A DNA stretch of 64,000 nucleotides from Levilactobacillus wangkuiensis. Lineage in GTDB: Bacteria > Bacillota > Bacilli > Lactobacillales > Lactobacillaceae. The position numbers and the translations under genes are program-made. The notes beneath the pieces were generated by a model that saw nothing but the letters and a program-made list of their open reading frames with translations, made no database searches and was not told the origin of the DNA. This document shows positions 4,929 to 64,000 of the stretch, one piece after another; the stretch's first letter is position 1; every line of letters starts with the position of its first letter. The stretch is from contig NZ_BOLM01000008.1 of NCBI RefSeq assembly GCF_016861605.1, forward strand, positions 62,001 through 126,000, given 5' to 3'.

Positions 4929-5233
4929 AGTCGCTTACCTCCCCGTAGTTCTTCATTATCGCAACCAATTCGATGAAGAACAATTGTTAACCTGTACAAA
5001 GCGCTGGTTAATTTAACAACCTAACAGCTTCTCATTAGTACCCAGCATAGCAAAAAAGAGCAAGCCTCGACCAGTGTTTGTGGCGGGCTTACTCTAAATT
5101 TAAGGCTTTAATTATCAAATAACTATTTATTTCGCATGATACGGGTGATCCTTCATGACTTGTGCGTAGTGTCGCAGCTCATCACCTCACCTGACAGACC
5201 GTGAGTCTTTCCTGTCACCACAAAATTTGGATA
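4929..5233 (-). other. Intergenic region between rplL and mprF with an extra terminator and a coding-like remnant
   Basis: No complete gene is found. On the minus strand a short open stretch (about 5121-5180) reads ELRHYAQVMKDHPYHAK and a stop, but it is closed upstream by an in-frame stop and has no start codon, so it may be the tail of a lost gene. A second terminator hairpin follows at 5052-5095. Confidence 0.4.
5052..5095 (-). terminator. Second terminator downstream of rplL
   Basis: Minus strand: AGAGTAAGCC and GGCTTGCTCT pair with one mismatch and are followed by TTTTTT. It lies about 140 bases past the rplL terminator. Confidence 0.75.
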
Positions 5234-5264
5234 CAAAAAAACCGTCACCCGAGGGCAACGGTTT
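5234..5264 (-). terminator. rplL terminator
   Basis: Minus strand: AAACCGTTGCCC pairs with GGGTGACGGTTT (12 bp including G-T pairs), followed by a run of T. Confidence 0.9.
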
Positions 5265-5286
5265 CTCATTTCGTAAGTGAAGATGA

Positions 5287-5652
5287 TTACTTAAGAGTAA
5301 CCACACCACCAACGGCTTCAAGCTTTTCCTTGATGTCGTTGGCTTCGTCTTCAGTAGCGCCTTCCTTGATGACAGATGGTACGTTGTCAACGAGGCCCTT
5401 AGCGTCCTTCAAACCTAAACCAGTGATTTCACGGACAGCCTTGATGGCCTTAACCTTGGCGTCACCAGATTCAGTTAATTCAACGTCGAATGAATCCTTG
5501 GCAGCAGCGTCGCCACCAGCAGCACCGGCTGCAGCAACTGGGGCAGCAGCGGATACGCCGAATTCGTCTTCGATACCCTTAACTAAGTCGTTAAGGTCAG
5601 TAATGGATGCTTCTTTAAGAGAAGCGATGATAGCATCTTTATCAAAAGCCAT
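5287..5652 (-). CDS. rplL: 50S ribosomal protein L7/L12
   Basis: A 121-residue acidic protein: an N-terminal dimerisation domain, an Ala/Gly-rich hinge ([17 protein letters not shown]) and the conserved C-terminal domain with [20 protein letters not shown], which recruits translation factors. The start is [10 protein letters not shown] at 5652 with GGAGG about 8 bases upstream; the longer frame (adding MEENN) places its ATG before that site. It follows rplJ by about 57 bases in the same transcript and is controlled with it through the rplJ leader. Confidence 0.97.
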
Positions 5653-5709
5653 GTTATTTTCCTCCAATAATTGGGTTTTATTTTTTATGTTTCAAATTGA
5701 ATCAGGAAC

Positions 5710-6216
5710 TTAGGCTGCGTCGCCTTCGTCACCCTTTTCAGCAATAGCCTTAACAGCGTAAGCCACGTTCCGTACTGGTGCTTGTAAGACATTAGCCAGC
5801 ATAGAGAGCAGGTCTTCACGACTAGGCAAGCTTGCGTAAGTGTTGATTTCGTCAACGGAGACAATCTTGTCTTCGATGAAACCACCCTTGATTTCAAGGT
5901 CGTCAACGCTGTCAGCAAACTTCTTCAAAACCTTAGCTGGGGCAATTGCATCATCGTTAGAAAATGCAACGGCAGTAGGACCAGCGAAAAGATCATTCAG
6001 ACCTTCGTAACCAGCCTTTTCAGCAGCCCGAACCAAAATTTTGTTCTTGATAACGTTCATTTGAACGCCGGCGTCACGCAATTGCTTCCGTAAGTCAGTT
6101 GCTTCTTCAACAGTTAAACCACGGTAGTCAACAACGATAGCACTGGTGGCGTTGTTGAATTTTTCAACAACCTCATCAACCTTTTTAGCTTTAATTGCAA
6201 TAGCTTGTTCACTCAA
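5710..6216 (-). CDS. rplJ: 50S ribosomal protein L10
   Basis: A 168-residue L10 protein, the stalk base that carries L7/L12 dimers on 23S rRNA. The conserved N-terminal segment [20 protein letters not shown] is present and the C-terminal helix is hydrophobic and charged as usual. GGGAGGTGAATT precedes the ATG. It is first in the rplJ-rplL operon. In known bacteria, L10-L12 complex binds the leader to repress its own synthesis, and the leader found at 6217-6367 fits this. Confidence 0.97.
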
Positions 6217-6367
6217 ATTAATTCACCTCCCGGAGTAGTTTGGTGGGATAAAAAAATCCCCATGTCACCAAGACATAAGGAGTCAAAAGTTTAAGTAAAC
6301 TTCTTCCTCGGCAGGAAATTAAGACCATTAGGCCACCTGAGTCTTAGGTAGATCTATTAAATACAAC
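6217..6367 (-). ncRNA. Ribosomal protein L10 leader RNA with attenuator
   Basis: The stretch between the rplJ promoter and the rplJ start contains CCTGCCGAGG preceded by TTAATTT, which I recognise from L10 leaders of Gram-positive bacteria. Downstream of it lies a terminator-like hairpin (plus-strand 6250-6280): CCTTATGTC pairs with GACATGGGG and is followed by seven T, about 30 bases before the start codon. This suggests regulation by premature termination when L10(L12) binds. Recognition is by motif and context only. Confidence 0.8.
6250..6280 (-). terminator. Attenuator in the rplJ leader
   Basis: Minus strand: 9-bp stem CCTTATGTC/GACATGGGG (with G-T pairs), loop TTGGT, then ATTTTTTTAT. 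Confidence 0.75.
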
Positions 6368-6373
6368 TTCAAT

Positions 6374-6402
6374 AGCATACAATACTTCGGCATCACTGTC
6401 AA
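6374..6402 (-). promoter_or_regulatory. Promoter of rplJ-rplL
   Basis: Minus strand TTGACA (6397-6402), 17-base spacer, TATGCT (6374-6379). This is close to the vegetative consensus and lies directly between rplA and the L10 leader. Confidence 0.85.
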
Positions 6403-6438
6403 CGTATTGCAGGGGATTTTTTTAATTTAAAATTTAAC

Positions 6439-7137
6439 TTAGGCTAATAAAGAAGCCAAGTCAACGTTGACGCTAGGGCCAAACGTTGAAGCGATTGAAA
6501 CGTGTTGAACGTAAGTCCCACGCACAGCGGCTGGGCGGATACGTACAATCGTTTCGGCAATGGTCTTCAAGTTGCCGGCAAGCTTGTCAGCATCAAAGGA
6601 AACCTTACCAAATGGAACAGCAACGTTACCGTCCCGGTCAGTCCGGTAAGTAACTTGCCCGTTCTTAGCATCGGAAACAGCCTTTTCGACGTTCATCGTA
6701 ACAGTCCCCGTCTTAGGGTTAGGCATTAAGCCCTTAGGTCCTAAGACCCGACCTAAACGACCAACTTGGGCCATCATGTCTGGCGTTGCAATCGCAACGT
6801 CAAAGTCCAACCAGCCGTCTTGGATGCGTTCTACTAAGTCTTGTTCGCCAACAACGTCAGCACCGGCAGCTTCTGCAGCCTTAGCTTGGTCACCCTTAGC
6901 GAATACGATTACCGTGGTTTCCTTACCGGTACCATTTGGTAATACTAATGCGCCACGGAGTTGTTGGTCCGCTTGCTTCGTATCAACGTTAAGCTTGAAA
7001 GCAACTTCAACAGTTGCATCGAACTTAGCGAAATCCATCTTCTTAACTAAATCAATCGCGTCGCCCATGCCGTAGACCTTGTCAGCCTCGACCATTTTGG
7101 CAGCGTCTTGATAATTCTTACCTCGTTTGTGAGCCAT
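6439..7137 (-). CDS. rplA: 50S ribosomal protein L1
   Basis: A 232-residue L1 protein, which binds 23S rRNA at the E-site stalk and often represses its own operon by binding its mRNA. The motifs [15 protein letters not shown] and the C-terminal [10 protein letters not shown] are conserved. The ORF extends upstream, but the start [10 protein letters not shown] at 7137 is chosen because GGAGGA sits about 12 bases before it and family members begin there. It follows rplK by about 98 bases. Confidence 0.97.
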
Positions 7138-7235
7138 TTTTGTGTATTCCTCCTTGCAAATGTGGTTGTAACGGATAAACCTCCCACTTGACACATTTCA
7201 TTTTCGTGAAGTGTCCGACTATCCGAAAACTGAGC

Positions 7236-7661
7236 TTAACCTTCGACCGTGAAGCCCATGCTCCGGGCAGTACCTTCAATCATGCGCATAGCTGCTTCAA
7301 CATCAGCTGCGTTTAGATCTTGCATTTTAGTTTCAGCGATTTGCTTAACTTGATCTTTGGTTACCGTAGCAACCTTTTTCGTGTTAGGTTCGCCAGAACC
7401 ACTTTCAACACCAGCGGCCTTCTTCAACAGAACAGCTGCTGGAGGGGTCTTGGTGATGAAATCAAAGGAACGATCTTCATAGACACTGATCACAACAGGA
7501 ATGATCATACCAGCTTGGTCAGCGGTACGAGCGTTGAATTCCTTAGTGAAGCCCATGATGTTGATACCTGCTTGACCTAAAGCTGGTCCAACTGGGGGAG
7601 CTGGGGTTGCTTTACCCGCAGGAATTTGTAATTTAACGACATTAGCTACTTTTTTAGCCAC
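7236..7661 (-). CDS. rplK: 50S ribosomal protein L11
   Basis: A 141-residue L11 protein with the conserved proline-rich N-terminus ([20 protein letters not shown]) and C-terminal RNA-binding domain ([12 protein letters not shown]). It binds the GTPase-associated region of 23S rRNA. AAGGAGG lies before the ATG. It is the first gene of the rplK-rplA unit with its own promoter at 7752-7780. Confidence 0.97.
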
Positions 7662-7751
7662 GAGACAATACCTCCTTGAGTCCGTGTGTGGTAAGTGGGG
7701 CTGTTAGTTTGCCCCTCCCACTTTGTACATATGCGTCACGCATACCTGAGA
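7662..7751 (-). promoter_or_regulatory. rplK 5' leader with hairpin (candidate L1 autoregulatory site)
   Basis: The leader between the promoter and rplK holds a hairpin: minus strand AAGTGGGAGGGGC, an unpaired stretch, then GCCCCACTT. L1 proteins are known to repress their operons by binding an mRNA helix of this general kind. I cannot confirm the L1 recognition loop, so this is a candidate. Confidence 0.35.
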
Positions 7752-7780
7752 ATCATACCACACTTTACTAACCACAACAA
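7752..7780 (-). promoter_or_regulatory. Promoter of rplK-rplA
   Basis: Minus strand TTGTTG (7775-7780), 17-base spacer, TATGAT (7752-7757). Confidence 0.7.
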
Positions 7781-7792
7781 GTTCTTTTTGAA

Positions 7793-8344
7793 TTAGCCTA
7801 AGATTGGGTCGACTTGGTCAAAGTTCAGTTCAGTACTGGTTTCCCGACCGAACATATCGATGTTGACCTTCAACTTCATCTTTTCGTCATCGACTTCGGT
7901 AATCTTACCGACTAAGCCACTGAAGGCACCGTCGACGATGGTTACGGAATCGCCAGGCGCAACGTCCAGGTCAGCGTGACGGGCAGAAATACCGACACGA
8001 CGTAAGATCCGTTCCACTTCATCGGGTAACAGTGGCGTTGGCTTACTTCCTTGCCCATGGGAACCCAAGAACCCGGTAACCCCAGGCGTGTTCCGGACGA
8101 TATACCAAGCTTGGTCACTCATGACCATTTCAACTAAGACGTAGCCAGGGAAAGTCTTTTCCATGGAGACCTTGTCCTTACCATTCTTAACTTCGTGTTC
8201 CTCTTCTTCAGGAACGACAACGCGGAAAATGTTGTCTTGCATCCCCATTGATTCGGACCGTGATTCCAAGTTCGCCATAACTTTGTTCTCGTAACCCGCG
8301 TAGGTGTGAAGAACGTACCATTGCTTTTCAGCTGACTCAACCAT
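7793..8344 (-). CDS. nusG: Transcription termination/antitermination protein NusG
   Basis: A 183-residue NusG. The NGN domain begins at WYVLHTYAGYENKV and contains FPGYVLVEM; the C-terminal KOW motif is GDSVTIVDGAFSGLVGKI (about residues 131-148). It binds RNA polymerase and modulates pausing and termination. It sits downstream of secE as in other Firmicutes, but a terminator-like hairpin separates the two genes. GGAGTG before the ATG acts as ribosome binding site. Confidence 0.96.
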   Translation of the reverse strand: MVESAEKQWYVLHTYAGYENKVMANLESRSESMGMQDNIFRVVVPEEEEHEVKNGKDKVSMEKTFPGYVLVEMVMSDQAWYIVRNTPGVTGFLGSHGQGSKPTPLLPDEVERILRRVGISARHADLDVAPGDSVTIVDGAFSGLVGKITEVDDEKMKLKVNIDMFGRETSTELNFDQVDPILG

Positions 8345-49714: not shown

Positions 49715-51679
49715 TTAATGTTCCTCCTTGGCTGGTAAGTGGTCTTGGAACCACTGATTGATACGATTCAACCGTTCGATCCGCAGGTTGGGCAGACCGG
49801 AACGGGATAATTCGTGATTAGATTTCGGGAACAGGACCAGTTGCGTGTCCACGCCGGCTTCCTTTAGGCCGACGAAGAACTCCTCACCTTGCGTAGTGGG
49901 ACAACGCAGGTCTTCCTCGCCGTGGAGCACCAAAATAGGTGTCGAGGCGTCTTGCACGTAGGCCAGCGGCGAGAATTTCCAGAGCACGTCGATGTTGTGC
50001 ATGTCCTGCTTGAGCTCCCACGGCGTGAAGAAGTAGCCGATGTCGCTGGTGCCGTAGAAACTGATCCAATTGGAAATGGAGCGTTGCGTGACGGCCGCAG
50101 CGAAGCGGTTGGTGTGGGTCTCAATCCAGTTGGTCATGAAGCCACCGTAGGAGCCACCGGTGACGCACAGTTGCTTAGGGTCAATCGTGGGATCCACTTT
50201 CAGCGCCGCGTCGGTTCCCAGCATCAGGTCTTCGAAGTCGCCCTCGCCGTAATGGCCGATGACGGCCGTCTCAAAGTCCTGGCCGTAACTGTTGCCGCCG
50301 CGCGGATTGATGGTGATGACGCCATACCCTTGGCCCGCAAGAAATTGCAGCTCGTGGTAGAAGCCATAGCCAAAGTCGACTTGCGGTCCCCCATGAACGT
50401 AGAGCACGGCGGGATGTTGTGGCGCTGGCGTAACGGGTGGGAAATACCAGCCCTCGATGTCCCAGTCGGCCGCCCCCTTGAAGGTGAAGCGCTGGCCGGC
50501 CACCAGCGCGTGTTTGGCCTCGTAGACGGCATTGGGGTTAATCAGCTCCCGTTCCTCGCCTGTGGCGACGTTAAGGGCCTTTAACCGGCTCACACTGGTC
50601 ATGGTCGACTCGGTGAAGACGATGGTCTGCGGGTCAACCACGCTAAAGTCCGTGATAGCCCGGTCGCCCCCCAGCAACGTCCGTGGTTGCGCATCGCCGT
50701 CGAGGCTTTGACTGACCAGGCTCAACCGCCCGTGTTCATTTTCCAAAGTTAAAAAGGTGTTGTGCGTCAGCCAAGCCACAAACTGGCCGGACTGCCGCTG
50801 CTGACTGTCGATGGCCAGCATGTCGCCGACTTCCACGTCGCGGGGCGCGGTCAGGTCGGTCAATTCACCGGTCGTGAGGTTACCCAGCCACGCGTGAAAT
50901 TGCGAGACGTTGGGGATGTGATTGTCCTGGCCCCACATCAACACGTGTTGGCCGTCTGCATCCAGCTGTCCCTGGTCGAAGGACCCAGCAGGTAGCTTTT
51001 CATTTAAGAGCCGGTCGGCCGTCCCATCGAAGGGATGCCAGTAAACGCCCTCGCTGAAGTCGTGCTCGTCTTCGGGCAGGCGTTCCGTTGAGAACAAGAG
51101 GCCCTGGTCGTTGGCCGCGGTCACGGTAAATGCATCCGTGCGTTCGAGGACGACGGATTGGTCGCGGCTGGCACATTGGTAACGAATGCATTGATACGTC
51201 AGGCCTTGCGGTAAGAGGCCGCGGCCGTTCATTTTGTATTGTAATTTGTCGACGATCTGGACGCTGGGGAGCGCATCCTTTGCCGGTTGTTTGGCACCGG
51301 TCGTCGTTTGAAAGTAGAGCACGTCGCTGTTGGCTTCCCAGGTCAGCTGGCTGATGTCGGCATCCCCGCGCGTAATCTGTTCCGGCGCCCCACCGTTGAG
51401 CGGCACCAGGAATAATTGGGCGTGGTCCTTAACCACCCCACTGAAGGCTAAATAGCGGCGGCTCGGGCTTAACGCCAGTTCGTTGACGCTCACATCGGCC
51501 GGACTCCACCGCCGCCGATCACTGCCATCCGCCAGTTGAACGGAATAAATGGCGGCTTGACTGGCATTCTTCTGCTGGTCTAGTTGACTCTCCACGTAGT
51601 ACACCCGCTGCCCATCACTCACTGGTTGAGCCAGCGGACGCAAGGCGAACAGGTCTTCCGGTTTCACGATTGTTGCCAT
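49715..51679 (-). CDS. S9 family serine peptidase (acylaminoacyl-peptidase-like)
   Basis: A 654-residue peptidase with an N-terminal beta-propeller and a C-terminal alpha/beta-hydrolase domain. The triad is Ser in VTGGSYGGFMTNW, Asp in HGEEDLRCP and His in KSNHELSRSG. Such cytosolic enzymes cut short peptides, often at proline or blocked N-termini. Two ATGs in a row (51682, 51679) follow GTGGGG; 51679 has better spacing. It is the first gene of the S9-proC pair. Confidence 0.9.
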   Translation of the reverse strand: MATIVKPEDLFALRPLAQPVSDGQRVYYVESQLDQQKNASQAAIYSVQLADGSDRRRWSPADVSVNELALSPSRRYLAFSGVVKDHAQLFLVPLNGGAPEQITRGDADISQLTWEANSDVLYFQTTTGAKQPAKDALPSVQIVDKLQYKMNGRGLLPQGLTYQCIRYQCASRDQSVVLERTDAFTVTAANDQGLLFSTERLPEDEHDFSEGVYWHPFDGTADRLLNEKLPAGSFDQGQLDADGQHVLMWGQDNHIPNVSQFHAWLGNLTTGELTDLTAPRDVEVGDMLAIDSQQRQSGQFVAWLTHNTFLTLENEHGRLSLVSQSLDGDAQPRTLLGGDRAITDFSVVDPQTIVFTESTMTSVSRLKALNVATGEERELINPNAVYEAKHALVAGQRFTFKGAADWDIEGWYFPPVTPAPQHPAVLYVHGGPQVDFGYGFYHELQFLAGQGYGVITINPRGGNSYGQDFETAVIGHYGEGDFEDLMLGTDAALKVDPTIDPKQLCVTGGSYGGFMTNWIETHTNRFAAAVTQRSISNWISFYGTSDIGYFFTPWELKQDMHNIDVLWKFSPLAYVQDASTPILVLHGEEDLRCPTTQGEEFFVGLKEAGVDTQLVLFPKSNHELSRSGLPNLRIERLNRINQWFQDHLPAKEEH

Positions 51680-51862
51680 CATAAGACCCCACTTTCTCTA
51701 TCAAATACACAAATGGTCTGGAGCAATTATTAGTTTGACTTTAGCGAAGTTAGGGGTGAATGTCAATTTTTTCGGGTGATTCCGGAGATATTGCTGGGGT
51801 GAACCGTTTGACTACCAAATGGTCGTTCATTCAGGCTGGTTAGCCAAGTAATTGCTGGTACA

Positions 51863-51896
51863 CGAAATAGGACTGCAACGAGGGTCACAGTCCTAT
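51863..51896 (-). terminator. Terminator of surface protein gene 1
   Basis: Minus strand ATAGGACTG and CAGTCCTAT form a perfect stem followed by TTTCG. Confidence 0.65.
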
Positions 51897-51909
51897 TTGA
51901 ATTGCTTAT

Positions 51910-54882
51910 TTAGTTGTGTTTGCGCCGTAACCCGAACCAGCTGAGGCCGGATAAGAGGGCTAGACCGACTAGCTGCCAGCCGGTTGCTGGTTGTTCACGT
52001 GTCTGCGGTAGCGTCGCCGAAGTTGCCGGCGTTAGCGTGCCAGCGGACCACACCCAGATACCTTGAGCTTGGCTGTAGTGCCAGCCGGTTGTGGGGGTCG
52101 AAGTTCCGTTTGCAGGCGTCGTTGTGAGCTGATCCCAGCTCAGCGATTGTGGCCGCCGAGCAGTTGCGGTTGCCCGGTGTCCTTGTGGTTGGGCAGGATA
52201 CTGCGTGGCTGTTTGCCGCGTTGGATTTCCTGCTGGTTGCTTGGACGTTGTTTTGTTGGACTTGGTTGTTGGGTGCTTGGCTTTTGGGTGCTTGGATTTA
52301 GGCGACTTGTTCTTAGGCGTTGTGGACGTGGTTGGTGTCGATGTGCCTGAGGTTGCAGGATTCGTTGGTGTATCTGGCGTGGTGGTGCTGGTACCAGAGC
52401 CGCTGGATTGTGGTGTCCAGGTTAACGTCAGATCCTCCACGCCATAGTTTCCAGAATGATCCGTACTGCCTCCTGTAGTTCCTGAACTTACTGCTAATAC
52501 TAGACTCGTTCCAATAAATCCTCCAGGCAGAGTTAACGTACCGCCGTCTGAATCAACATAGTCTAGTTTTTCACCCTTATAGGTAAACACTGGTGAAGTC
52601 AATGTTAAGCCTAGTTCGGCTTTAATTGCATCTGTCACGCCGGTTAAGTAGTTACCTTCTCGGGCAACCCCAACACTCAATTCTTTTTGGTTTGCAAACG
52701 CATCGTCACCTACATAGGCAAGTTCCTCCGGCGTATTATGAATTTTTTTCAAAGCATTCTCAGCAAATGCCTCATTCCCAACACTTCTGTCTGCACCAAC
52801 TATTCCTGCACCTAAAGTTAAATCACTTAGCTCGTTATCAGCAAACGCTCTAGAACCAACATTTTGGACACTATCTGGAATAGTCAAGGCACCTGCTAAT
52901 CCAACGTTCTCAAACGCTGAACTTCCGATAGTTGCCACAAACTTGCCTAATTTCACCTTAGGTATTTGTTCCTTAAGACTGTTGTCATCCTTACGACTAA
53001 ATGCATAGGCTCCAATGGTGGTCACGCTATCAGGGATAATCAAAGTATTCTCATTATCCGTTACATTAAATGGATTATCAGCAAAAGAGTAATCTCCAAT
53101 TATCTTGCTGCTACTACCAAATTTTACATCAGTTATTTTATTGCCTTGAAAGGCAGAGACACCAATTGAATCTAAACTATTAGCTAATTCAAGATTCCCG
53201 TCAATAGCATTATTTAAAAAAGCATTTTCTCCAATCGAATTCAACTTACTTTCAGATGTATTCATCGTCAGCCCAGTTATGTGATTGCCTGCAAAGGCAG
53301 AGGTTCCAATTGTCTCCAACGAGTTTGGTAATTTTAACGTACCAGAATAGTTGTCCCCCTCAAACGCATTTGAACCAATATTTTCAACACCTTCATTCAA
53401 GCCTAACTGGTCTAAGTTTTTGTTGAGAGCAAATGCTGAATCTTCAATTCGCAAAGTATTTTTATCAGTATTGGTAAAACTAATCGTATTCAAATTGTTA
53501 TTTGCAAAGGCATTAGTCCAAATTTCTTGGAGTAGCCCCCCAGAAAAGGTCACACTTGTCAACTGATTACCGGTACCATCAGGATTACCCGCAAAGGCTG
53601 AAGCCCCAACTGTTGTAACGGCATCCGGAACTGTCAATGATCCGTTCAACTTATTATTGGCAAAAGCACTTGGACCAATAGTTGTTAAGTCCTTATCCAA
53701 CTGAACCGACTTCAAGTGATTATTCTCAAATGCTGAATCATCAATTTCCGTAACTGAATCCGGTAATGAAAGCTTCTCTAAACCATTGTTTGCAAAGGCT
53801 TCGTCACTAATTTCCCAAGCAGTCGTATGTTCTCCAAATGTAATGCTCTCTAACTTGTTGTGCTCAAATGCTTGTTTCCCTAGCACACCTAATTTGTCAG
53901 GCAAAATAACACTAGTGAGACTATTGTTTTGAAACGCACCATTACCAATTGAGGTAATATGCGCACCAAAAGTCACATTCGTTAATCCTTTACCGGTAAA
54001 AGCATTATCGCCAATCGCCGTCACCCACGCACCGTCAAAGGTATCCGGAATGGTAACCTCTGAACTACTTCCTGGTGTATAACCAGTAACAGTATACGAA
54101 TCACCATAAATACTCGTGACTTTTTGATAAACCAATCCACTCTTTTCATCCGTCTCAGGAGTCGGCGTGTTAACCGGTGTGTCAACCGGTGTATCGTCCG
54201 TATCAGCCAACAAACTCGCAGCCATAGGTACATTCATGCGTGACAAAAATAACCGCGGACTAAACAATCGGCTGTCAGCCACCACAAACTTCTGCCGATC
54301 AGTCTTCTCATCAGTCGTTTCTTCGGGTGGTACCGTCTGCTTTTTATCGTTATCTGCCGTCGTCACCTGTTGCGTTTGAACTGTTTTAACTACCTCAGAC
54401 TGGTCGGACTGTTCTGAAACTTTCTCACCACTCCCGGTCGTCTTCTCATCATCGTTTAGCTCATATGGCGATGACCCCTGATTCCGTGGCGCTACAGGTT
54501 CAGCCGGCGTCTTTTCTTTCGCATCAGTCTGTGATTCCGTATCCGCCTGAACCTTGTCGTCAGACCGTTCATCAGTCGCGTTCGACTGATTCTTTTCGGC
54601 GTCTTCATCCCCCGCAGACTGCTTCTCGGTAGTCTTGGTGTCGTCCGTTTCCGTTTCTGTCGCCGTTGATTCCTGAGTCTTATCCGCTGTGTCAGTGGTC
54701 GTCGGCTCACTAGCGGTGACCGCGGTCACCGAACTGCTACTGGCGGCCGTGGCCGGTTGGTCTGCCGCCTGGGCCTTGAGGATGTTGGCATTCAACGCCA
54801 ACCCTGCACTTAAACTGATCACCGTTAGGCCGGTTGACAACCATTTCTTCTGTCCAGCCGTCAACGGCCGGTTTTCCGTCAT
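51910..54882 (-). CDS. LPQTxE-anchored BspA-type leucine-rich-repeat surface protein 1
   Basis: A 990-residue secreted protein. Parts in order: signal peptide (residues 1-39, W-x-x-TGLT core as in KxYKxGKxW-type signals, cut after AQA); acidic Ser/Thr/Glu/Asp-rich stretch (41-200); BspA-like LRR_5 repeats of about 23 residues (about 255-740, pattern IPDSVTTIGAYAFS); Thr/Pro/Lys-rich wall spanner with KSKHPKAKHP; sorting signal LPQTR at 958, hydrophobic helix and RRKH tail. The Gly of LPxTG is Arg, though the Lactobacillus LPQTxE form is kept. Probably an adhesin. The LRR-coding DNA is more AT-rich than both ends. No good ribosome binding site lies right before the ATG: a seven-codon mini-ORF (MGFQRQN) behind AGGAGAGG ends in TAATG, which overlaps the start. 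Confidence 0.85.
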   Translation of the reverse strand: MTENRPLTAGQKKWLSTGLTVISLSAGLALNANILKAQAADQPATAASSSSVTAVTASEPTTTDTADKTQESTATETETDDTKTTEKQSAGDEDAEKNQSNATDERSDDKVQADTESQTDAKEKTPAEPVAPRNQGSSPYELNDDEKTTGSGEKVSEQSDQSEVVKTVQTQQVTTADNDKKQTVPPEETTDEKTDRQKFVVADSRLFSPRLFLSRMNVPMAASLLADTDDTPVDTPVNTPTPETDEKSGLVYQKVTSIYGDSYTVTGYTPGSSSEVTIPDTFDGAWVTAIGDNAFTGKGLTNVTFGAHITSIGNGAFQNNSLTSVILPDKLGVLGKQAFEHNKLESITFGEHTTAWEISDEAFANNGLEKLSLPDSVTEIDDSAFENNHLKSVQLDKDLTTIGPSAFANNKLNGSLTVPDAVTTVGASAFAGNPDGTGNQLTSVTFSGGLLQEIWTNAFANNNLNTISFTNTDKNTLRIEDSAFALNKNLDQLGLNEGVENIGSNAFEGDNYSGTLKLPNSLETIGTSAFAGNHITGLTMNTSESKLNSIGENAFLNNAIDGNLELANSLDSIGVSAFQGNKITDVKFGSSSKIIGDYSFADNPFNVTDNENTLIIPDSVTTIGAYAFSRKDDNSLKEQIPKVKLGKFVATIGSSAFENVGLAGALTIPDSVQNVGSRAFADNELSDLTLGAGIVGADRSVGNEAFAENALKKIHNTPEELAYVGDDAFANQKELSVGVAREGNYLTGVTDAIKAELGLTLTSPVFTYKGEKLDYVDSDGGTLTLPGGFIGTSLVLAVSSGTTGGSTDHSGNYGVEDLTLTWTPQSSGSGTSTTTPDTPTNPATSGTSTPTTSTTPKNKSPKSKHPKAKHPTTKSNKTTSKQPAGNPTRQTATQYPAQPQGHRATATARRPQSLSWDQLTTTPANGTSTPTTGWHYSQAQGIWVWSAGTLTPATSATLPQTREQPATGWQLVGLALLSGLSWFGLRRKHN

Positions 54883-54914
54883 TAATTTTGTCGTTGGAAC
54901 CCCATCCTCTCCTG

Positions 54915-54952
54915 ATAAAAATGGGCCAAATTCGTTGGAATCTGTCCCATTT
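54915..54952 (-). terminator. Terminator-like hairpin after surface protein gene 2
   Basis: Minus strand AAATGGG and CCCATTT, with AGATTC/GAATTT inside, form a long stem followed by TTTTATC. It lies between surface protein genes 2 and 1. Confidence 0.6.
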
Positions 54953-54963
54953 CAGCGTTGCTA

Positions 54964-57789
54964 TTAATCATCTTGTTTTTTCTTCATGACTCCCAGCCAA
55001 CTGGCGGCCAACAATCCAATGGCCCCTAACCAGCGCCACTGACTGTTTTGCTCGTTCGTTTGTGGCAAAGTCGTAGCCTTAGTGGCTACTGTCGATTGTG
55101 CTCCTTTATCCGTTACAGACTTTTGCGTTCGCACCTGTGGCTGTGCGGTGTTTTTTTTCATCACCGTACTTGCCCCAACACTGGGAACACCTTCACCGGT
55201 CACCACAATTTGTGCGGCTTGTCGCGGTGTATAAGTCCATTGATTATTATGCACCGATATTGTATCAGAATCAATCGGTCTGGGCGTGTCCAAATAGGTC
55301 TGAACAGGGACATCTGTGGTGTGCCGTTTGGTTTCCGCGGTAACGCTAGGTGTCGTGATTTCTGATGTTGAACCAGGCTTACTTGGGGATGTCGGTGTTA
55401 CTGGTGTAACAGGATCAATAGGGTCAACCTCAGAATCAATATCCGGTCGTTGACTACCAGATTTAACATATAAAACATAATCTGGCGTCGTCACACTAGC
55501 CAAGTTGACCGTCGCCGTCACCGCCATAGGATCCATCTCGTATCCGGCAATTACAGGTGCTGGCACTTTAAGTGTCGAACCAACCTGGCCCTCATAATAG
55601 TCTTCAGTCGTCAAAGTGCCCAAGTTACTGGGAATATTTACCTGGGCCGATTCCATCAACTTGTACAGCTTCAACTCAAGCGTATGAACGCCTAACCGCC
55701 CCGTATCCGTTCCACCTGAAGCGAAGTGAACCAGAAACGAAGTCGGCACGGAATTATCGTCCGACAGCGTGGCGGACAGACCAGCCGGTAACATCAGCGT
55801 ATCTGTATACTCGTTGTAGGCCAACTGTCGGTAATCTTCAGGTGTCTCACCAATACTAAAGGTTAAGTTCGCCAGGTCAAAATTGGCCAGGCCAATAGCA
55901 TCCCGCAAAAGTTGCTTAACGCCCAGTGCTGAAGTGACGGTGGTCCCAACCCCATCTAGCACCAAGGCAGACTGGTCCGCAAAGGCATTATCACCAATCG
56001 ACCCAACAGTCCCCGTCGCGTTAATATCTTGTAAAGAATTATTCGCAAACGACCATTCGTCAAGGGTTACAACCTGATTACCAAACTGAACAGCGGCCAA
56101 TTTATTATTTTGAAACGCACTCGTCCCAATATTCAGAATGCTGTCAGGGAAAACCAAGCCACCGGCCAACATGTTGTCAGCAAAAGCCCTCTCCGCAATC
56201 GTCTGCACCTGACTACCAAAGGTTAATCCGGTCAACTGATTGTTAGCGAAGGCAGCCTGCCCAATCGACGTAATCCCGTCTGGAATCACCAGTGTGCCTG
56301 TTAAGAGATTGTCCTTGAAAATATCGTCATTCAATTTGGTCAGTTGACTACTCAGGTAAACCCCAGTTAATTGATTGGACGCAAATGAAGCGGCCCCCAA
56401 GTCCGTCACTGAATCCGGTATCGTTAGTGTGCCCGTTAAGGCATCACCCTGGAAGGCGCTGGTCCCAATTCGCTTTAGATTCTGACCGAGCACCACACCC
56501 TGCAACCCCTTATTATTTGCAAACGCAAAATCACCCAGATCGGTCACAGTATCTGGAATCGTCACCGTCCCTGTCAATCCATCATTTTGAAAAGCACCGG
56601 TCCCAATGCGTGTCAGATTTTGACTGAGCGCCACACCTTGCAACTCAGAATTATCAGCAAACGCAAAATCGCCCAGGTCGGTCACGGTATCTGGAATCGT
56701 CACCGTGCCTGTCAAAGTATTGTTTTGAAAAGCACTAGTCCCAATTTGCGTCAGATTCTGACTGAGTTTAACATCAGTCAATCGATTATTCTGAAAAGCA
56801 TAGTCCCCAATTCTCGTCACAGCATCCGGAATGGTCACCGTCGTGAGTTGATTGTTTTTAAACGCATTGTCCCAAATGGCAACAGCGCCATTCAAATCAA
56901 CTGCCTTCAATTCATTATCGGCAAAGGCCCCACTATAAATATAAATCCAGGTACCCGGCAACGTTAGCGAAGTCAGTTGGTTCCCGGCAAACGCATTTTC
57001 CTTGATGGCATGAATGTTTTGCCCTATCGTTACCTGTGTCAGTTTCGTAATCGCCGTTCCTAAAGTGGCATTAAAGGCGTTCGCGGCAATCTCAGTCACG
57101 TATTTTCCTTCATACATATCAGGAATCGTAATGGCCGTGCTGAACCCACCCACCGGGGCCGTGCCATCAGCCTGCCGCTGGGCATCCCCCGTGTAACCGG
57201 TCACAGCCACGTTTCCGTCCGCCAATTCTTCGAAAGAAAAATCGGAGACACTGGTACTGTCGGTTACTTTCAATAATGAACGCGTCTTTTTGAGGTTTTG
57301 CGTTTGACCAGTGGTATCATCCGGTTCCTCGGCATCATCGTCCAACGTGTCATCACCGCCGTCAGAAACGTCGACTGAATCAGGGATCTCATGATTATTT
57401 CCGTCTTGATTAGGTTCTTGATTGTCAGCCGGCTGTTCGGGCAACTTGTCTAATTGATCATCATCAGTATCGCCTGGAGTCGCGCCAGAAACAGATTCTT
57501 CTTGGCCGCCTGGTTTTTGTTGATCTGCAGTCTCCGAGTCAGTGCCTGCTGCCTCATCACCTGAATCATTGTCTGAGTCATTCAGTTTAGCAGCCGTTTC
57601 TGTTGATTGTTTCTGTTTATCGGTTGAATCCGTTTCACTCATTTGTGTCGTGGGTGTGGTCGCCGCACGAGCTACCTGTTCCCCAAAGGCGACACCGCTA
57701 GTCAAAGCCGCCACCGTCAGGCCAGTATAGAGCCACTTGTTGCAGAACACATTTGCTTCGGTGTCCCCTTGCTTATTGCCATTTCGCAT
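54964..57789 (-). CDS. LPQTxE-anchored BspA-type leucine-rich-repeat surface protein 2
   Basis: A 941-residue secreted protein. Signal peptide residues 1-42 (NKWLYTGLTVAALTSGVAFG core); Asp/Glu/Gln-rich stretch (45-175); LRR_5 repeats (about 200-640) including nearly identical 46-residue units built on TGTVTIPDTVTDLGDFAFA and LTRIGTGAFQN; a MucBP-like segment (YYEGQVGSTLKVPAPVIAGY) near residue 760; Thr/Pro-rich linker; LPQTN at 908 with a membrane helix and KKKQDD tail. AAGGGAAAGG precedes the ATG. Likely a wall-anchored adhesin; the ligand is unknown. Confidence 0.87.
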   Translation of the reverse strand: MRNGNKQGDTEANVFCNKWLYTGLTVAALTSGVAFGEQVARAATTPTTQMSETDSTDKQKQSTETAAKLNDSDNDSGDEAAGTDSETADQQKPGGQEESVSGATPGDTDDDQLDKLPEQPADNQEPNQDGNNHEIPDSVDVSDGGDDTLDDDAEEPDDTTGQTQNLKKTRSLLKVTDSTSVSDFSFEELADGNVAVTGYTGDAQRQADGTAPVGGFSTAITIPDMYEGKYVTEIAANAFNATLGTAITKLTQVTIGQNIHAIKENAFAGNQLTSLTLPGTWIYIYSGAFADNELKAVDLNGAVAIWDNAFKNNQLTTVTIPDAVTRIGDYAFQNNRLTDVKLSQNLTQIGTSAFQNNTLTGTVTIPDTVTDLGDFAFADNSELQGVALSQNLTRIGTGAFQNDGLTGTVTIPDTVTDLGDFAFANNKGLQGVVLGQNLKRIGTSAFQGDALTGTLTIPDSVTDLGAASFASNQLTGVYLSSQLTKLNDDIFKDNLLTGTLVIPDGITSIGQAAFANNQLTGLTFGSQVQTIAERAFADNMLAGGLVFPDSILNIGTSAFQNNKLAAVQFGNQVVTLDEWSFANNSLQDINATGTVGSIGDNAFADQSALVLDGVGTTVTSALGVKQLLRDAIGLANFDLANLTFSIGETPEDYRQLAYNEYTDTLMLPAGLSATLSDDNSVPTSFLVHFASGGTDTGRLGVHTLELKLYKLMESAQVNIPSNLGTLTTEDYYEGQVGSTLKVPAPVIAGYEMDPMAVTATVNLASVTTPDYVLYVKSGSQRPDIDSEVDPIDPVTPVTPTSPSKPGSTSEITTPSVTAETKRHTTDVPVQTYLDTPRPIDSDTISVHNNQWTYTPRQAAQIVVTGEGVPSVGASTVMKKNTAQPQVRTQKSVTDKGAQSTVATKATTLPQTNEQNSQWRWLGAIGLLAASWLGVMKKKQDD

Positions 57790-58170
57790 GAATCTACCTT
57801 TCCCTTCGCTGGTGTCTTCGAGTGATTAGTTTACAGACCGTTTCGTTTCACATTAGTTGCTTATGCGAAATATTCTATGATATTCATACTATCACGACTT
57901 AACCAAAACACCAGTGTTACTTAATTGCCAAGGGGGATAACGATTACCGCTATATGCAGATATTTATTATCAAACCAATTTTTCCCCACACCTACCACAA
58001 TTAGTGACTTTGCTTATTTACTTGAGCACAACCGAATCACCCCGAGTCAATCTCGTAACACAACCAGAGAAGTGTGGTGAAAAAACTTTTTTCTGAAAAT
58101 TAAAAAAATTCACAAAAAAGTACGGCCAACACACAGAAAGCGCGTCAATCGTACTGGTAAATCGTTAAAT
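57790..58170. other. Intergenic region between surface protein genes 3 and 2
   Basis: About 380 bases, AT-rich, no gene. It holds the terminator of gene 3 (58113-58155) and presumably the promoter of gene 2, for which I see no clear hexamer pair (TTGGTT with a TATCAT about 18 bases on, near 57880-57903, is the best candidate). Confidence 0.5.
58113..58155 (-). terminator. Terminator of surface protein gene 3
   Basis: Minus strand AGTACG and CGTACT enclose a long loop and are followed by TTTTTTG. Confidence 0.6.
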
Positions 58171-61100
58171 TTAATTGTGATTTCGCTTGTGAGCTAAACC
58201 TAACCAGCTCAATCCAACCAGCAACATCGTCCCTAGCCACTGCCAACCAGTTGCGTGTTCATTGGTTTGTGGTAACGTCTGTTGCTTAACAGCTGGCGCC
58301 GACGTCCGTGCTGGATTCGTGGCTTGCAAGTCAGTTGAAGACTGTTGCTCTGTCCGGGTAACCTGGCCACCCTCAAACTGCGAGTTAACCCGATACCCTG
58401 GCGTAGCGACTGTCGTCCGCGTGGTGGCCCGTTGCTGGATAGCGGTTGTCGTCAAGCGTTGCGGCACGACACGTTTCAGTTGCCAGTTAGGCCCTTCAAT
58501 GACCAGCTTCGGTGAAACGATACCAGCCTGATGGGCGTCCGAACCCTTTTTCGTCTGCGATTTTCCACCGTCAAAGTTGGGTGGATAAGGAATGGCCTTA
58601 TCTCCACCAGTTGTCGGCGTAACGACGGGTGTCGCTGGAGGCGTCACTGGCGTCACCGCCGGATCACCACCGGGTGTATTTCCCGGGTTAACTGGAGTTT
58701 CGGGTGTAACAGGGGTTACGGGGGTATCTGGTGCGCCCGGATCAGTCGTCCCACCAGGTTGTGTCGGATCAGTTGTATCATGGCCGCCGCCACCGGGCGT
58801 TAGGTCCGGCGTGTACAAGACATCCTCATTGGCTGTGATGGTGCCGTTCGGGTTGACTGTCGCCGTAATGGTCTTCTTGTTCGCGGTATACCCGCCAACC
58901 ACCGGAACCGTCACGACCACTTGCGTATTGCCAACGCGGTCGGTAATACCCCACGCCTTATCCGCATGCATCCCCTGCAGCATGCCAATCATGTCAGGAT
59001 TGCGGCTGAGGTTACTCGGAATCGCCACGTCATCCGTGACCCACCGATTCAAGTCCAGTCTGAGGTTTTCAACGCCATAACGCCCGGTATCAGTACTGTT
59101 AGTCGTCAGGCTCAGAACCACCTTGCCGTTCTGCACCCAATCCGGCAAAGTCGCACCGTCAGAAACAGGCGGCAGCGTCAGGGTATCCGTAACCGGATCA
59201 TAGACCAGTTGGGCTTGATTGTCGGTGAAAATGAAGGTTAATCCCGCAATATCCAGATTCTTCATTCCCAGGGCATCGCGAATTGCCTGCTGGACACCAG
59301 AGGCAACCGTGGTGATAGTACCGTTTTGATTAGCGACAATGGCCCCGGCAACACCGGCATTCAACAAGGTTTGACCGGCAAAGGCATAGTCCGCGATGGT
59401 CGCAATCTGGCCACTAGCATTGATTTTCTGCAAGCTATTATAAGCAAACGCGTAACTTTCCAGACTGTTCATGTTCGACCCCATCTCGAGGTCAGCCAGC
59501 TTGTTATAAGCAAACGCATATTTCCCAACATCATGAACGTTATCGCCTAACTTCAGGGTACCGCTTAATTGATTATGTTCAAACGCTTCATCGTTAACAG
59601 TCACCAAACCGGTCCCAAAGGTTAAACCGTTCAATTGGTTATTCACGAATGCATCGGCCCCGACGTTGGTCAGCGTATCTGGAAAATTCAGAACACCCGT
59701 TAAGTTATTGTTGGCAAACGCGTTGGCTTCAATCGTTGACAACGGGGCCGTCCCCAGCTCAAGCCGCGTCAATTGGTTGCCACCCGCAAAGGCAGACTCG
59801 CCAATACTCGTCAGCTCATCCGATAACGCCAGTTTCCCAGTCAATTTATTCCCGTAAAAAGCATACTTTTCAATCGTGTTTAGCTTGGTGCCACCGGTCA
59901 AACCGGTCAGTTGGTTATTGGCAAAGGCGGACGTCCCCACGTTTAAGATGCTGTCCGGCAGATTCAGGGTGCCTGTCAGCTGATTATCGGCAAACGTTTG
60001 CGGCCCAATCTCCGTCAATTTGTCATTCAACGTCACGCTACTCAACTGATTATCCCAGAAGGCTTGGTCCCCCAGGTACGTCAGGCTGGCTGGTAAGTTA
60101 AGTGACCCAGCTATGCGATTATGCGCAAACGCGGCCGTCCCAATCGATGTCACGCTGTCGTCCAGCTGCAAGCCGGTTAGCTGATTCCCGTCGAAGGCGG
60201 CGTCCCCAATACTGGTAATGGTCGCGGGAATCGTTAACGCACCGGTCAGTTGGTTATTGGCAAAGACGCCGGTGTTCAACAGGCTCAGACCGGCGTCTAA
60301 GGTCAACCCGGTCAGCTGATTGTTGGCAAAGGCTTGATCCCCCAGCGCGGTCAGTGTCTCGGGTAACACCAAGTGACCCTGAATCTGGTTATTCGCAAAG
60401 GCTGCCGTTCCAATCGAGACCACCTTTTGACTCAGCGTCAGGGATTGAATCGTATTATTTTCAAAGGCATCGGCCGCAATACTAGTCACCGAATCCGGAA
60501 CGACCAGCTGCCGAATCTGATTACTCTGAAAGGCCCCGGCGTTGATCTGCTGCAAGTTCCCCAGATCAACCGTCACCAAGTCGTTATTGGCAAACGCCCC
60601 GGCCCCCACGGACCAGATGCCATTCGTAAATTTAATTGTTTTTAATTGATTATTCGCAAACGCATGGTCCCAAATGACCTGTAGGTTCTGCCCTAGCGTC
60701 ACATCGGTCAACCCGGCGCCATTAAAGGCGTTCGCGGCAATCTCTGTGACCGGCAAGTTTAAATAGGTATCCGGAATAGTAATCTGCGTACCGTGCGTCG
60801 GATTGGCAAAACCGGTCACCACGTAACCGTCCTTGCCGTCATTTAACGTGTAGGCCAAGGCAGACTGCGTATCGGCGTCAGAAGTCGTGGTCACCGCTGC
60901 CGTTGTGGCTGGCGCGATCGGCACATCGCTCGCAGGTGTCGTATCGGGTGTTGGATTCGTTACGTCAGTCGACGGTTCGTCTTGTTTCGCTGGCTGCTCC
61001 GCGTCTCTTAACAGGAGATACCGAGCCGCTCGCAGCGATGGCTTGATTGCCGTGGTTGTTTTTTCGGTTGGAACCGTTGGTTTGGGTGTCACCGTCGTCT

Positions 61101-61511
61101 GAGTCGGCGTGTCAGTTGCCGCGGATGTCACCGGTGTCTTCCCAGTCGTTGGTGCTGGTTTCGTTGTCGGTTCAGAACTCGATGTCACGGTTTTAGCCGG
61201 ATTTTCCGCCGTCATCGTCTCGTCTGACGTCCCATTACCTTTCTGAGTGGAACCAGTCCGGGCAAACCGGTACCGGTTTGCCCGGACTGCGACACATCAG
61301 CCGGCGTGACCGAACTCGTTGTTTGGGTGGCCGTCACGTTCTCCGTTTGGGGCGTACCATCACCGGTAGCCGTCTCGCGGGTATCCGCAAAAACCGGCGT
61401 CGTGACGAGCATGACCCCCGCCCCTAGGCTCACTAGGGTGACACCGGCATAGATCCACCGACAACTAGGCCGCTGAACTTGACTACGATGTTGCCATTTT
61501 TCTTTAAACAT
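58171..61511 (-). pseudogene. BspA-type leucine-rich-repeat surface protein 3, split by a frameshift
   Basis: Two frames make up one gene. 61212-61511 (ATG after GGGGTGG) encodes a signal peptide (CRWIYAGVTLVSLGAGVML core, cut after VFA) and the first Thr-rich residues, ending early in a run of charged residues. 58171-61215 (1014 residues, start overlapping the first stop as ATGA) encodes a Thr/Pro-rich stretch, LRR_5 repeats (about residues 120-600), a C-terminal linker and LPQTN at 981 with a membrane helix and charged tail. The break coincides with a perfect 36-bp palindrome (61254-61289); deleting 20 bases there rejoins SQSGQTG to STQKGNGTSDET. Unless the frame is restored, the large part lacks a signal peptide and would stay inside the cell. 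Confidence 0.85.
61254..61289. repeat. Perfect 36-bp palindrome at the frameshift of surface protein gene 3
   Basis: CAGTCCGGGCAAACCGGT is followed immediately by its own reverse complement (centre between 61271 and 61272). Flanking bases do not pair. The first arm (on the minus strand) continues the signal-peptide frame. Confidence 0.97.
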
Positions 61512-61828
61512 CAATTGCCACCCCTTTCACGAGCACCGACTACCCCTTTTAAGATTATCCTAACACCCAACGAACTATTTGTCAGCGATGATAAATTGAA
61601 AACTAGGGTAACGATTGTCCCTATAATTTGCTAGTGCCATGTTCTATCGGTTCTTGGTGCCGATGGAACCCGGATGAACGCCTGGGTCCCTCCACGTGTC
61701 TGTCTAATCATCGACTCGTTTACGGGACGACCACAAAAAACTGTCCCATTCTAAACTATTTTCGTAGGGTACACAAAAGGCGCTCGAGAAATTCCCGGGC
61801 TCCACAATCTAGAATATAAATGAGAACA
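61512..61828. other. Upstream region of surface protein gene 3
   Basis: No gene. A possible promoter on the minus strand is CTGACA-17-TAGGAT (about 61556-61584). At 61639-61667 GTTCTATCGG and CCGATGGAAC form a hairpin with one mismatch. No function is assigned to the remainder. Confidence 0.4.
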
Positions 61829-61859
61829 TAAAAAAAACAGTCACACACCGTGACTGTTC
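61829..61859 (-). terminator. Terminator of the tRNA-Tyr/tRNA-Gln unit
   Basis: Minus strand AACAGTCAC and GTGACTGTT form a 9-bp perfect stem around GGTGT, followed by TTTTTT. Confidence 0.9.
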
Positions 61860-61864
61860 CTTAG

Positions 61865-61936
61865 TTGGGCTAGCTGGGTTCGAACCAGCGCATGACAGGA
61901 TCAAAACCTGTTGCCTTACCACTTGGCTATAGCCCA
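61865..61936 (-). tRNA. tRNA-Gln (anticodon TTG)
   Basis: 72 bases; acceptor TGGGCTA/TAGCCCA, anticodon stem ACAGG/CCTGT with loop TTTTGAT giving TTG, T-loop GTTCGAAC. CCA not encoded. Downstream of tRNA-Tyr in one transcript. Confidence 0.95.
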
Positions 61937-61946
61937 ATAATAAAAA

Positions 61947-62029
61947 TGGTGGGGAGTGGATTCGAACCACCGAACCCGAAGGAGCGGATTTACAGTCCGC
62001 CGCGTTTAGCCAGACTTCGCTACCCCACC
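61947..62029 (-). tRNA. tRNA-Tyr (anticodon GTA)
   Basis: 83-base class II tRNA; acceptor GGTGGGG/CCCCACC, anticodon stem GCGGA/TCCGC with loop CTGTAAA giving GTA, long variable arm CTCCTTCGGGT, T-loop TTCGAAT. Confidence 0.95.
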
Positions 62030-62111
62030 AAAACGTGAATCGTCGTAACGAATCAACTACACTATCATACAAAAAACTGCATAAATCGTCAAGACTTTTT
62101 TGCAGTTTTTT

Positions 62112-62927
62112 TTATTTTAAATCCAAAATCCTTAATTGACGCTGCCATTCGACGAAAAAATCGGGCTGAGACCACTCGTTGATTCGCCGATTGTGGTACC
62201 CAACCGCCTGATTGTAATAGGTGGTTGGGCCAAAGGTTGCTGGGGCAAACCGATGATGGACGTGACCGAATAAAGTATCAGCCACTGAATATTTTTCCAA
62301 AACGGCGCCAATCCGCGGACTCCCTAGCATGGCGTTGGCCATGTTCCAGAAACGGTTGTCATCTGTATACCGGATATAGTCCTGACGCGGGACGAAGTGG
62401 GTCATAAACAGGACCCGTTTGCCAGCTACCTGTGCCTGCGCCAATTGCTCGGTCATCTGTGCCACCACCTGGTCTAGCCGTTCAGGATCACTTTGGGGCT
62501 GCACAATCGTACTGTCGATCCAAAAGGCCCGTTTCCAGCTCAAGAAATTCCGCCCGACCAGGTTATTAGCAAATTGATAATCATACCAGCCATTATTGCC
62601 GATTACCCGCCAGTTAGTCCCCGGGAGGTCTAAAGACCCACGATGGAAGTAAACAGGCGTCTGTGACGCTTCTAGGCCCGCATACGTGATGTCGTGTAAC
62701 ATGTCGTGATTGCCCGCAATAAACCGTACCTTGGCTGGTGCCATGAGCGCTTGTAGCCGGGTGACGAAGGCTAGCGACTGACTAAAGTAATTGGTCACGT
62801 CACCAGCAATTAAATACAGTCCCACGTTCCGTTGGGTCAAGTACGCTGCCTGCTGTTGGGCAACGGTCTCTGGATCCTGTTGATTGATGTCTAAATGTAA
62901 GTCACTGATCATGGCCACCTTAACCAC
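62112..62927 (-). CDS. Calcineurin-like metallophosphoesterase
   Basis: A 271-residue phosphoesterase. All metal motifs are present: ISDLHLD, AGDVTNYF, GNHDM, THFVP and FGHVHHRF. Target (nucleotide, lipid or protein phosphate) unknown. The start is GTG at 62927 (MVKVAMISD) with GGGGGC 6 bases upstream; the frame is open further up through the neighbouring terminator and that part is not used. The gene follows the peptide transporter terminator. Confidence 0.88.
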   Translation of the reverse strand: MVKVAMISDLHLDINQQDPETVAQQQAAYLTQRNVGLYLIAGDVTNYFSQSLAFVTRLQALMAPAKVRFIAGNHDMLHDITYAGLEASQTPVYFHRGSLDLPGTNWRVIGNNGWYDYQFANNLVGRNFLSWKRAFWIDSTIVQPQSDPERLDQVVAQMTEQLAQAQVAGKRVLFMTHFVPRQDYIRYTDDNRFWNMANAMLGSPRIGAVLEKYSVADTLFGHVHHRFAPATFGPTTYYNQAVGYHNRRINEWSQPDFFVEWQRQLRILDLK

Positions 62928-62956
62928 GTCGTCGCCCCCTTTCAAATATAGCGGCA

Positions 62957-62990
62957 CAAAAAAATGCCACTCCATCATAGAGTAGCACTT
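62957..62990 (-). terminator. Terminator of the peptide transporter gene
   Basis: Minus strand AGTGCTACTC and GAGTGGCATT pair (one G-T), followed by TTTTTT. Confidence 0.8.
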
Positions 62991-63006
62991 TTTCGCCAGA
63001 AACAAA

Positions 63007-64000
63007 TTATTTAATTCCGGCCATTAAGTTCTTAATTGGTTTAACCAAGACAAACATAATCAGCCCAGCGACGATGGCCACGATGGCCACACCCATGAAG
63101 TAAGCTGCTTCGTTTTCTGGTGTGTATAGCTTAACGATTTGCGCGTTAACGGCTTGACCAGCGGCATCGGCTAAGAACCACATACTCATCATTTGAGATT
63201 GGAACGCCTTCGGTGCTAACTTGGTCGTCACGGACAATCCGATTGGTGAAATCAACAGTTCGGCAATTTCAACAACTGCCCAGCTACCGACTAACCAAAG
63301 CGGACTGACCCGGGCATCCGTCCCGAACATAACCACGGGAACCACCATGATCAGGTAAGAAGCCCCGGCGAACAGCATCCCAGTTGCAAACTTGGCTGGT
63401 GAGCTAGGTTGTTTCTTACCCCAACGGTTCCACATTGCGGCAAAGAATGGCGTGTAGATCAAGATGAACAATGGGTTTAACATTTGGTACCAAGATGGCA
63501 AAATGTGTACCCCTAAGAAATGGTTGTTCGTCTGGTTGGCAGCGAATAAGGCCAACACAGATGACCCTTGTTCTTCAATTGCCCAGAAGATCATGGCAGC
63601 GATGAACAGGCCTAAGTAAGCCCACACGTGCTTCCGTTCAGTGCTGGTAACTTTTTTACTGGTTAAGAAAATCGTGAAGTAAACGACTGGTGCAGCAATC
63701 GCGATAACGGATAATAAGAGCACGAAGTTGTTTAAGTTCAATGAACCTAAGAGGTACATCAGGATAATGACCAATCCGAAAGCAACCAAACCAATGGTCC
63801 CCCGAACAGTCAGCTTCTTCATGTCACCGGGTTCCAGTGGGTCGGTTGGGTAAAGGCTGTCCTTACTCAAGTACTTCTTCCCACCGATCCAGTATTGAAC
63901 CAGACCCAAGAACATCCCAATAGCGGCCAAGGAGAACCCTAAATGGAAGTTGTATTTCAGACCTAACCACCCAACTAAGAGCGGTGCGACCAAGGACCCC
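63007..64000 (-). CDS. dtpT: POT family di-/tripeptide transporter (C-terminal part)
   Basis: About 330 residues are inside the window; the N-terminal part runs off the right edge, with the frame open to the last base. Nine or so membrane helices are visible. The segments AAMIFWAIEEQGSSVLALFA, PLFILIYTPFFAAMW and the C-terminal EIAELLISPIGLSVTTKLAP are typical of proton-coupled DtpT, which imports di- and tripeptides. It ends at a terminator. It complements pepC and the S9 peptidase in peptide use. Confidence 0.92.
   Translation of the reverse strand, partial: GSLVAPLLVGWLGLKYNFHLGFSLAAIGMFLGLVQYWIGGKKYLSKDSLYPTDPLEPGDMKKLTVRGTIGLVAFGLVIILMYLLGSLNLNNFVLLLSVIAIAAPVVYFTIFLTSKKVTSTERKHVWAYLGLFIAAMIFWAIEEQGSSVLALFAANQTNNHFLGVHILPSWYQMLNPLFILIYTPFFAAMWNRWGKKQPSSPAKFATGMLFAGASYLIMVVPVVMFGTDARVSPLWLVGSWAVVEIAELLISPIGLSVTTKLAPKAFQSQMMSMWFLADAAGQAVNAQIVKLYTPENEAAYFMGVAIVAIVAGLIMFVLVKPIKNLMAGIK

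Follow-up and report, generated by a model that had tools for sequence, protein, structure and literature searches.

A perfect palindrome at the frameshift of a Levilactobacillus surface protein gene, probably left by quasipalindrome template switching

Within the 64,000-nucleotide stretch of DNA analysed here (hereafter the window), a gene for a large surface protein is divided between two reading frames, and the site at which the frame changes is occupied by a perfect palindrome. This arrangement raises the question of how palindrome and frameshift came about, and whether together they constitute a switch or mark the loss of the gene. The gene lies on the minus strand, where three LRR_5 genes stand in tandem, and it is the one that is read first. 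Open reading frame analysis and profile searches place its signal-peptide frame at 61212–61511 on the minus strand, where 99 codons extend from an ATG at 61511 to a stop (61212–61214) located past the palindrome. The body frame (58171–61215, minus strand) comprises 1014 codons free of stops, carries six stretches of BspA-type LRR_5 repeats (388.2 bits against a profile cut-off of 27.7), and ends with a C-terminal LPQTN, which we take to be a sortase motif. It is open from 61296 to 58171 and thus overlaps the signal-peptide frame across the palindrome, and its ATG at 61215 lies on the signal-frame stop as ATGA. Both the split between signal peptide and body and the ATGA overlap, as described in an earlier note on this DNA, are borne out by these coordinates. 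The N-terminal piece resembles a long signal peptide, but its score of 20.7 bits for the KxYKxGKxW signal peptide (PF19258) falls below the curated cut-off of 23.6, and the whole-protein score for the LRR adhesin HupY/LrrG (NF047961), 284.9 bits, is likewise under its curated cut-off of 1250. In its LRR_5 stretches and LPQTN, the gene resembles those of BspA-type LRR_5 surface proteins with a sortase-type C-terminus, but it differs from them in that signal peptide and body occupy separate frames. The two neighboring LRR_5 surface protein genes, identified in the same way, are uninterrupted on the minus strand, with LPQTN (54964–57789) and LPQTR (51910–54882), respectively. Upstream of the split gene is a promoter-like site (61557–61585, minus strand) whose second hexamer is preceded by TG; this is a consensus match only, and five such sites occur in the region compared to 3.5 in shuffled sequences.

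The palindrome spans positions 61254–61289, has no spacer, and consists of two 18-base arms in which 18 of 18 pairs are complementary, precisely as had been claimed. In the direction of the gene, the upstream arm is 61272–61289 and the downstream arm 61254–61271, both given for the minus strand. The window contains 20 spacer-less palindromes with arms of at least 6 bases, among which the runner-up to this one has arms of 9. In 50 first-order Markov sequences, the longest arms were 7–11 bases and the mean number of palindromes with arms of at least 6 was 16.1, so the window is unusual in the length of its palindromes and not in their number. Assuming uniform composition, palindromes with arms of at least 18 bases would be expected 9e-7 times per 64 kb and 4.6e-5 times per 3.14-Mb genome, and the length observed is far beyond chance. 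A repeated element was rejected, since the 18-base arm has no third copy in the 64-kb window when up to three mismatches are allowed, and a 341-base query against the genome itself (E <= 0.001) recovered only the palindrome site and its own reverse complement. A terminator was also rejected, as the palindrome is absent from the output of the terminator scan.

Comparison with close relatives reveals what preceded this structure. The closest named relatives are Levilactobacillus mulengensis (89%, best segment) and L. lanxiensis (62%), the sole two good matches among named records; the search for relatives' contigs returned these and a single distant record. On this basis the window is assigned to Levilactobacillus, a genus found mostly in food and on plants, or to something very close to it. 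In a set with one genome per species, the region was found by DNA search in 3 of 35 genus genomes, and a protein search gave matches in 21 of 35, the window's own genome being counted in each case. Over approximately 800 bases around the junction, the window is 86–87% identical to both relatives, in which a single stop-free frame runs through the junction (1117 codons in L. mulengensis and 1248 in L. lanxiensis, stop to stop). On the coding strand, the window aligns with them without gaps from the start codon up to the junction, at which it has 36 bases to the 34 of either relative. Relative to L. mulengensis, the upstream arm differs at only two positions, both third codon positions, and the downstream arm exhibits one contiguous replacement in which three bases have become five (61260–61264), all five of them complementary to the upstream arm. 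L. lanxiensis differs from the window in both arms, and for this reason the exact ancestral letters are uncertain. The comparison of this junction among relatives that the earlier note had proposed as a check thus finds, in both species, the 34-base form within a single open frame and the palindrome missing. The orthologue from L. lanxiensis (4363–8107 of its locus) is also 131 codons longer than that of L. mulengensis, stop to stop, and its identity to the window shifts along the gene from 90% to 77%, which suggests repeat gain or recombination.

Because both relatives carry 34 bases where the window carries 36, no 18-base arm has been inserted; rather, the downstream arm has been rewritten with a net gain of two bases. 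The proposal that a whole arm plus two bases had been acquired is therefore not upheld, as an imperfect 16-base downstream stretch was already present beforehand. The conversion of three bases into five as dictated by the other arm is, judged from the aligned sequences, the signature of quasipalindrome template switching, and the template-switch origin that had been put forward gains support from the 34-base form in the two relatives and from the scan of change clusters described below. We consider it likely that a mutation of this kind generated the frameshift, resulting in what is probably a recent, one-way loss of the surface protein gene. In such an event, the Ser/Thr-Gly linker that follows the signal peptide would, in an ancestor, have contained an inverted repeat with imperfect arms. 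While this DNA was being replicated, the nascent strand may have folded back, or the polymerase may have switched strands, whereupon the unmatched middle would have been copied from the other arm, the upstream arm being the likely template, before synthesis returned to the proper template at the next matching stretch. The outcome would be a frameshift separating the signal peptide from the LRR body, with the consequence that an exported, anchored form of the protein is most likely no longer produced.

Mutations of this type have been studied elsewhere. In Escherichia coli, template switching is described as completing a quasipalindrome or bringing it closer to perfection (PMC7202029), and in yeast, the homogenization of arms in coding genes has been inferred through strain comparison (PMC8604942). 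The present case resembles the Ripley model, as exemplified in E. coli by the thyA hotspot and the lacZ QP5/QP6 reporters, in that an inverted repeat is perfected through a contiguous multi-base change that alters the frame; it differs in concerning a natural Levilactobacillus-like surface-protein gene, in being deduced by species comparison, and in that the frame is broken here whereas the lacZ reporters regain theirs (PMC7202029). It is similar to the short inverted repeats of yeast in that arm homogenization by template switching is recognized from genome comparison, although the yeast study excluded repeats with indels and covered arms of 7–16 bp, whereas the arms here are 18 bases and two bases were gained (PMC8604942).

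When the downstream stretch of L. mulengensis is set against the upstream arm of the window, seven bases match before the unmatched middle and six after it, a repeat that would lend itself well to a template switch; for L. lanxiensis the corresponding figures are six and four. Within the relatives' own sequences, the matches extend over 3 and 6 bases in L. mulengensis, the first being broken by one mismatch, and 0 and 4 bases in L. lanxiensis, and a repeat finder detected at their junction only imperfect palindromes of 10–12 bases. As single-stranded DNA, the L. mulengensis hairpin is predicted to fold at −10.5 kcal/mol (z −1.7; 13 of 200 shuffles equally good) and that of L. lanxiensis at −7.8 kcal/mol (z −0.4; 67 of 200 shuffles equally good), compared to −21.8 kcal/mol (z −7.7) for the window with its 18 of 18 pairs. 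The repeat has thus grown more perfect, but the weakness of the repeats in living relatives is the weak point of the template-switch explanation, which consequently requires that the upstream arm had come to resemble that of the window before the event.

The distinctiveness of the junction was gauged against other changes nearby. Window positions 50000–64000 (about 14 kb) were aligned with the locus of each relative, a cluster being defined as at least two differences within at most 40 columns, with longer clusters left out, and each cluster was scored in both directions by the length of the nearby inverted match covering its changed bases. The alignments contain approximately 5200 gap columns each, and part of this interval therefore escaped comparison. 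Against L. mulengensis (285 clusters, 510 tests), the inverted match at the junction is 36 and the runner-up is 12; against L. lanxiensis (251 clusters, 458 tests), two junction clusters score 36 and the runner-up 18. The latter corresponds to a perfect 18-bp palindrome at 54714–54731, which resides in the N-terminal linker of a neighboring LRR_5 gene whose frame is kept. Its counterpart in L. mulengensis is 16 bp, and the L. lanxiensis locus has none with arms of at least 7; possibly this palindrome represents a milder arm-matching change.

The state of the body frame bears on the age of the loss. The synonymous distance assigned to the window branch, measured over the first 500 columns, is about 0.187. 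Had the body been unconstrained along that entire branch, approximately 16.6 stops would be expected, and none is seen in 1014 codons, which leaves no more than about the final 18% of the branch for any unconstrained period. The loss accordingly looks recent on the evidence of the codons, and the idea that the gene was freshly lost is supported by the intact genes of the two relatives together with the stop-free body, although a body without stops may instead reflect selection on some product. Among private codon changes in the same 500 columns, the ratio of synonymous to nonsynonymous is 36/22 for the window, 41/12 for L. mulengensis and 30/12 for L. lanxiensis. The nonsynonymous share is higher on the window branch, but relaxed selection there is suggestive at most, the differences being non-significant (Fisher p 0.10 against L. 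mulengensis, 0.39 against L. lanxiensis, and 0.11 against both).

The same export signal appears to have been lost once more in another species. We inspected the N-terminus in 12 matched loci (L004 and L005, from L. mulengensis and L. lanxiensis, and L010–L019), and in 11 of them the signal region and body share one frame as far as the locus reaches, L017 being cut by the locus end. The exception, L016 (genome G047, minus strand, about 2900–3200), seemingly has no ribosome site, start codon, or first half of the signal peptide when compared, partly by eye, with L015 and L013, and its body is open for 1007 codons. It looks as if the start had been deleted between short G-rich repeats, and the surrounding 200 bases contain no perfect inverted repeat with arms of at least 6 and a spacer of 0–8. 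If the L016 assembly is right, the export signal seems to have been lost twice through different mutations, and two losses by unlike mutations suggest a dispensable surface protein rather than a dedicated palindrome switch.

Several other explanations of the junction were weighed against template switching. Because the genome is a draft of 56 contigs, and because library artefacts at inverted repeats have been described (PMC10908179), a fold-back in the library or an assembler error might have created a palindrome that is not in the cell. We regard this as unlikely: only a short internal tract has changed and both flanks are collinear, the search of the genome itself produced no second version, and the published artefacts are described as low-frequency calls and not as a consensus. 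It is less probable still that ordinary independent changes, namely a two-base gain and substitutions, came to match the other arm by accident. Partial palindromes form easily in the linker because Thr-Gly codons (ACC GGT, for example) are self-complementary, and the repeat in the relatives, which are 86–87% identical to the window around the junction, is weak; however, five of five contiguous bases match the other arm, and no other scanned cluster approaches a score of 36. The two frames might also remain functionally connected, either through programmed ribosomal frameshifting at the hairpin, which in the mRNA is predicted to be very stable (−36 kcal/mol, z −6.3), or through re-initiation of the intact body frame at the ATGA overlap. 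Such a rescue seems very improbable, as the 87 bases from 61213 to 61299 contain no slippery X XXY YYZ heptamer in any frame, a re-initiated product would have no signal peptide, and the arrangement is missing in both close relatives.

Equally to be weighed is the suggestion, made in the earlier note, that the surface protein is toggled by gain and loss of the palindrome at high rate. A gene for a cell-surface protein is a plausible target for phase variation and its body frame is undamaged, yet such a switch is not supported, and we find it quite improbable. The palindrome, as a would-be switching sequence, is not kept in either of the two close relatives. Spacer-less palindromes with arms of at least 9 occur in only 5 of 37 loci (partial stretches totaling 184 kb), four of which are from the window's own genome (three contain the 61254–61289 palindrome and one that at 54714), and in the fifth, L035, the palindrome sits behind its gene. 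Template switching at an imperfect repeat proceeds towards perfection (PMC7202029), and perfecting a palindrome erases the old letters; in the other species noted above, the start of the gene was apparently lost by simple deletion. A broader version, in which the Thr/Ser-Gly linker is a contingency site where quasi-palindromes of self-complementary codons become perfect and diverge again time after time, so that the surface protein is silenced and restored in the population without a recombinase, appears very improbable as well. Linkers are unsupported as quasi-palindrome hotspots: in 11 orthologues they contain no long quasi-palindromes, with best ungapped scores of 5–9 that were equaled by 7 to 60 of 60 synonymous shuffles per orthologue, and in only one of the 11 (L015, 9 versus 8) did the linker score higher than the top block in the body of the same gene. 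This test is weak, given that the ungapped score is blind to a two-base gap and that the position at which the linker begins was assigned by an approximate rule, which placed it late in L004, L005 and L014 and ahead of the true linker in certain other loci.

Template switching at a quasipalindrome remains our preferred account of the frameshift. As regards a loss of hairpin-handling nucleases as its background, the profiles of SbcD and XseA score above their cut-offs in all 35 genus genomes, the window's own included, and hence these two enzymes provide no sign of a repair defect. A literature search, outside which most subscription journals lay, returned no paper that joins quasipalindrome, frameshift and lactobacillus, and none naming Levilactobacillus mulengensis. 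The mutation is likely of a type familiar from laboratory studies, represented here by what looks like a clean natural example with an inactivated surface gene, and the locus is likely a trace that quasipalindrome template switching has left in the genome of a Gram-positive bacterium, two relatives of which display the shorter arrangement. In other respects this would be an ordinary event, the loss of a gene in one genome, but it illustrates how a single short copying slip could detach a surface protein from its export signal while leaving the remainder of the gene whole.
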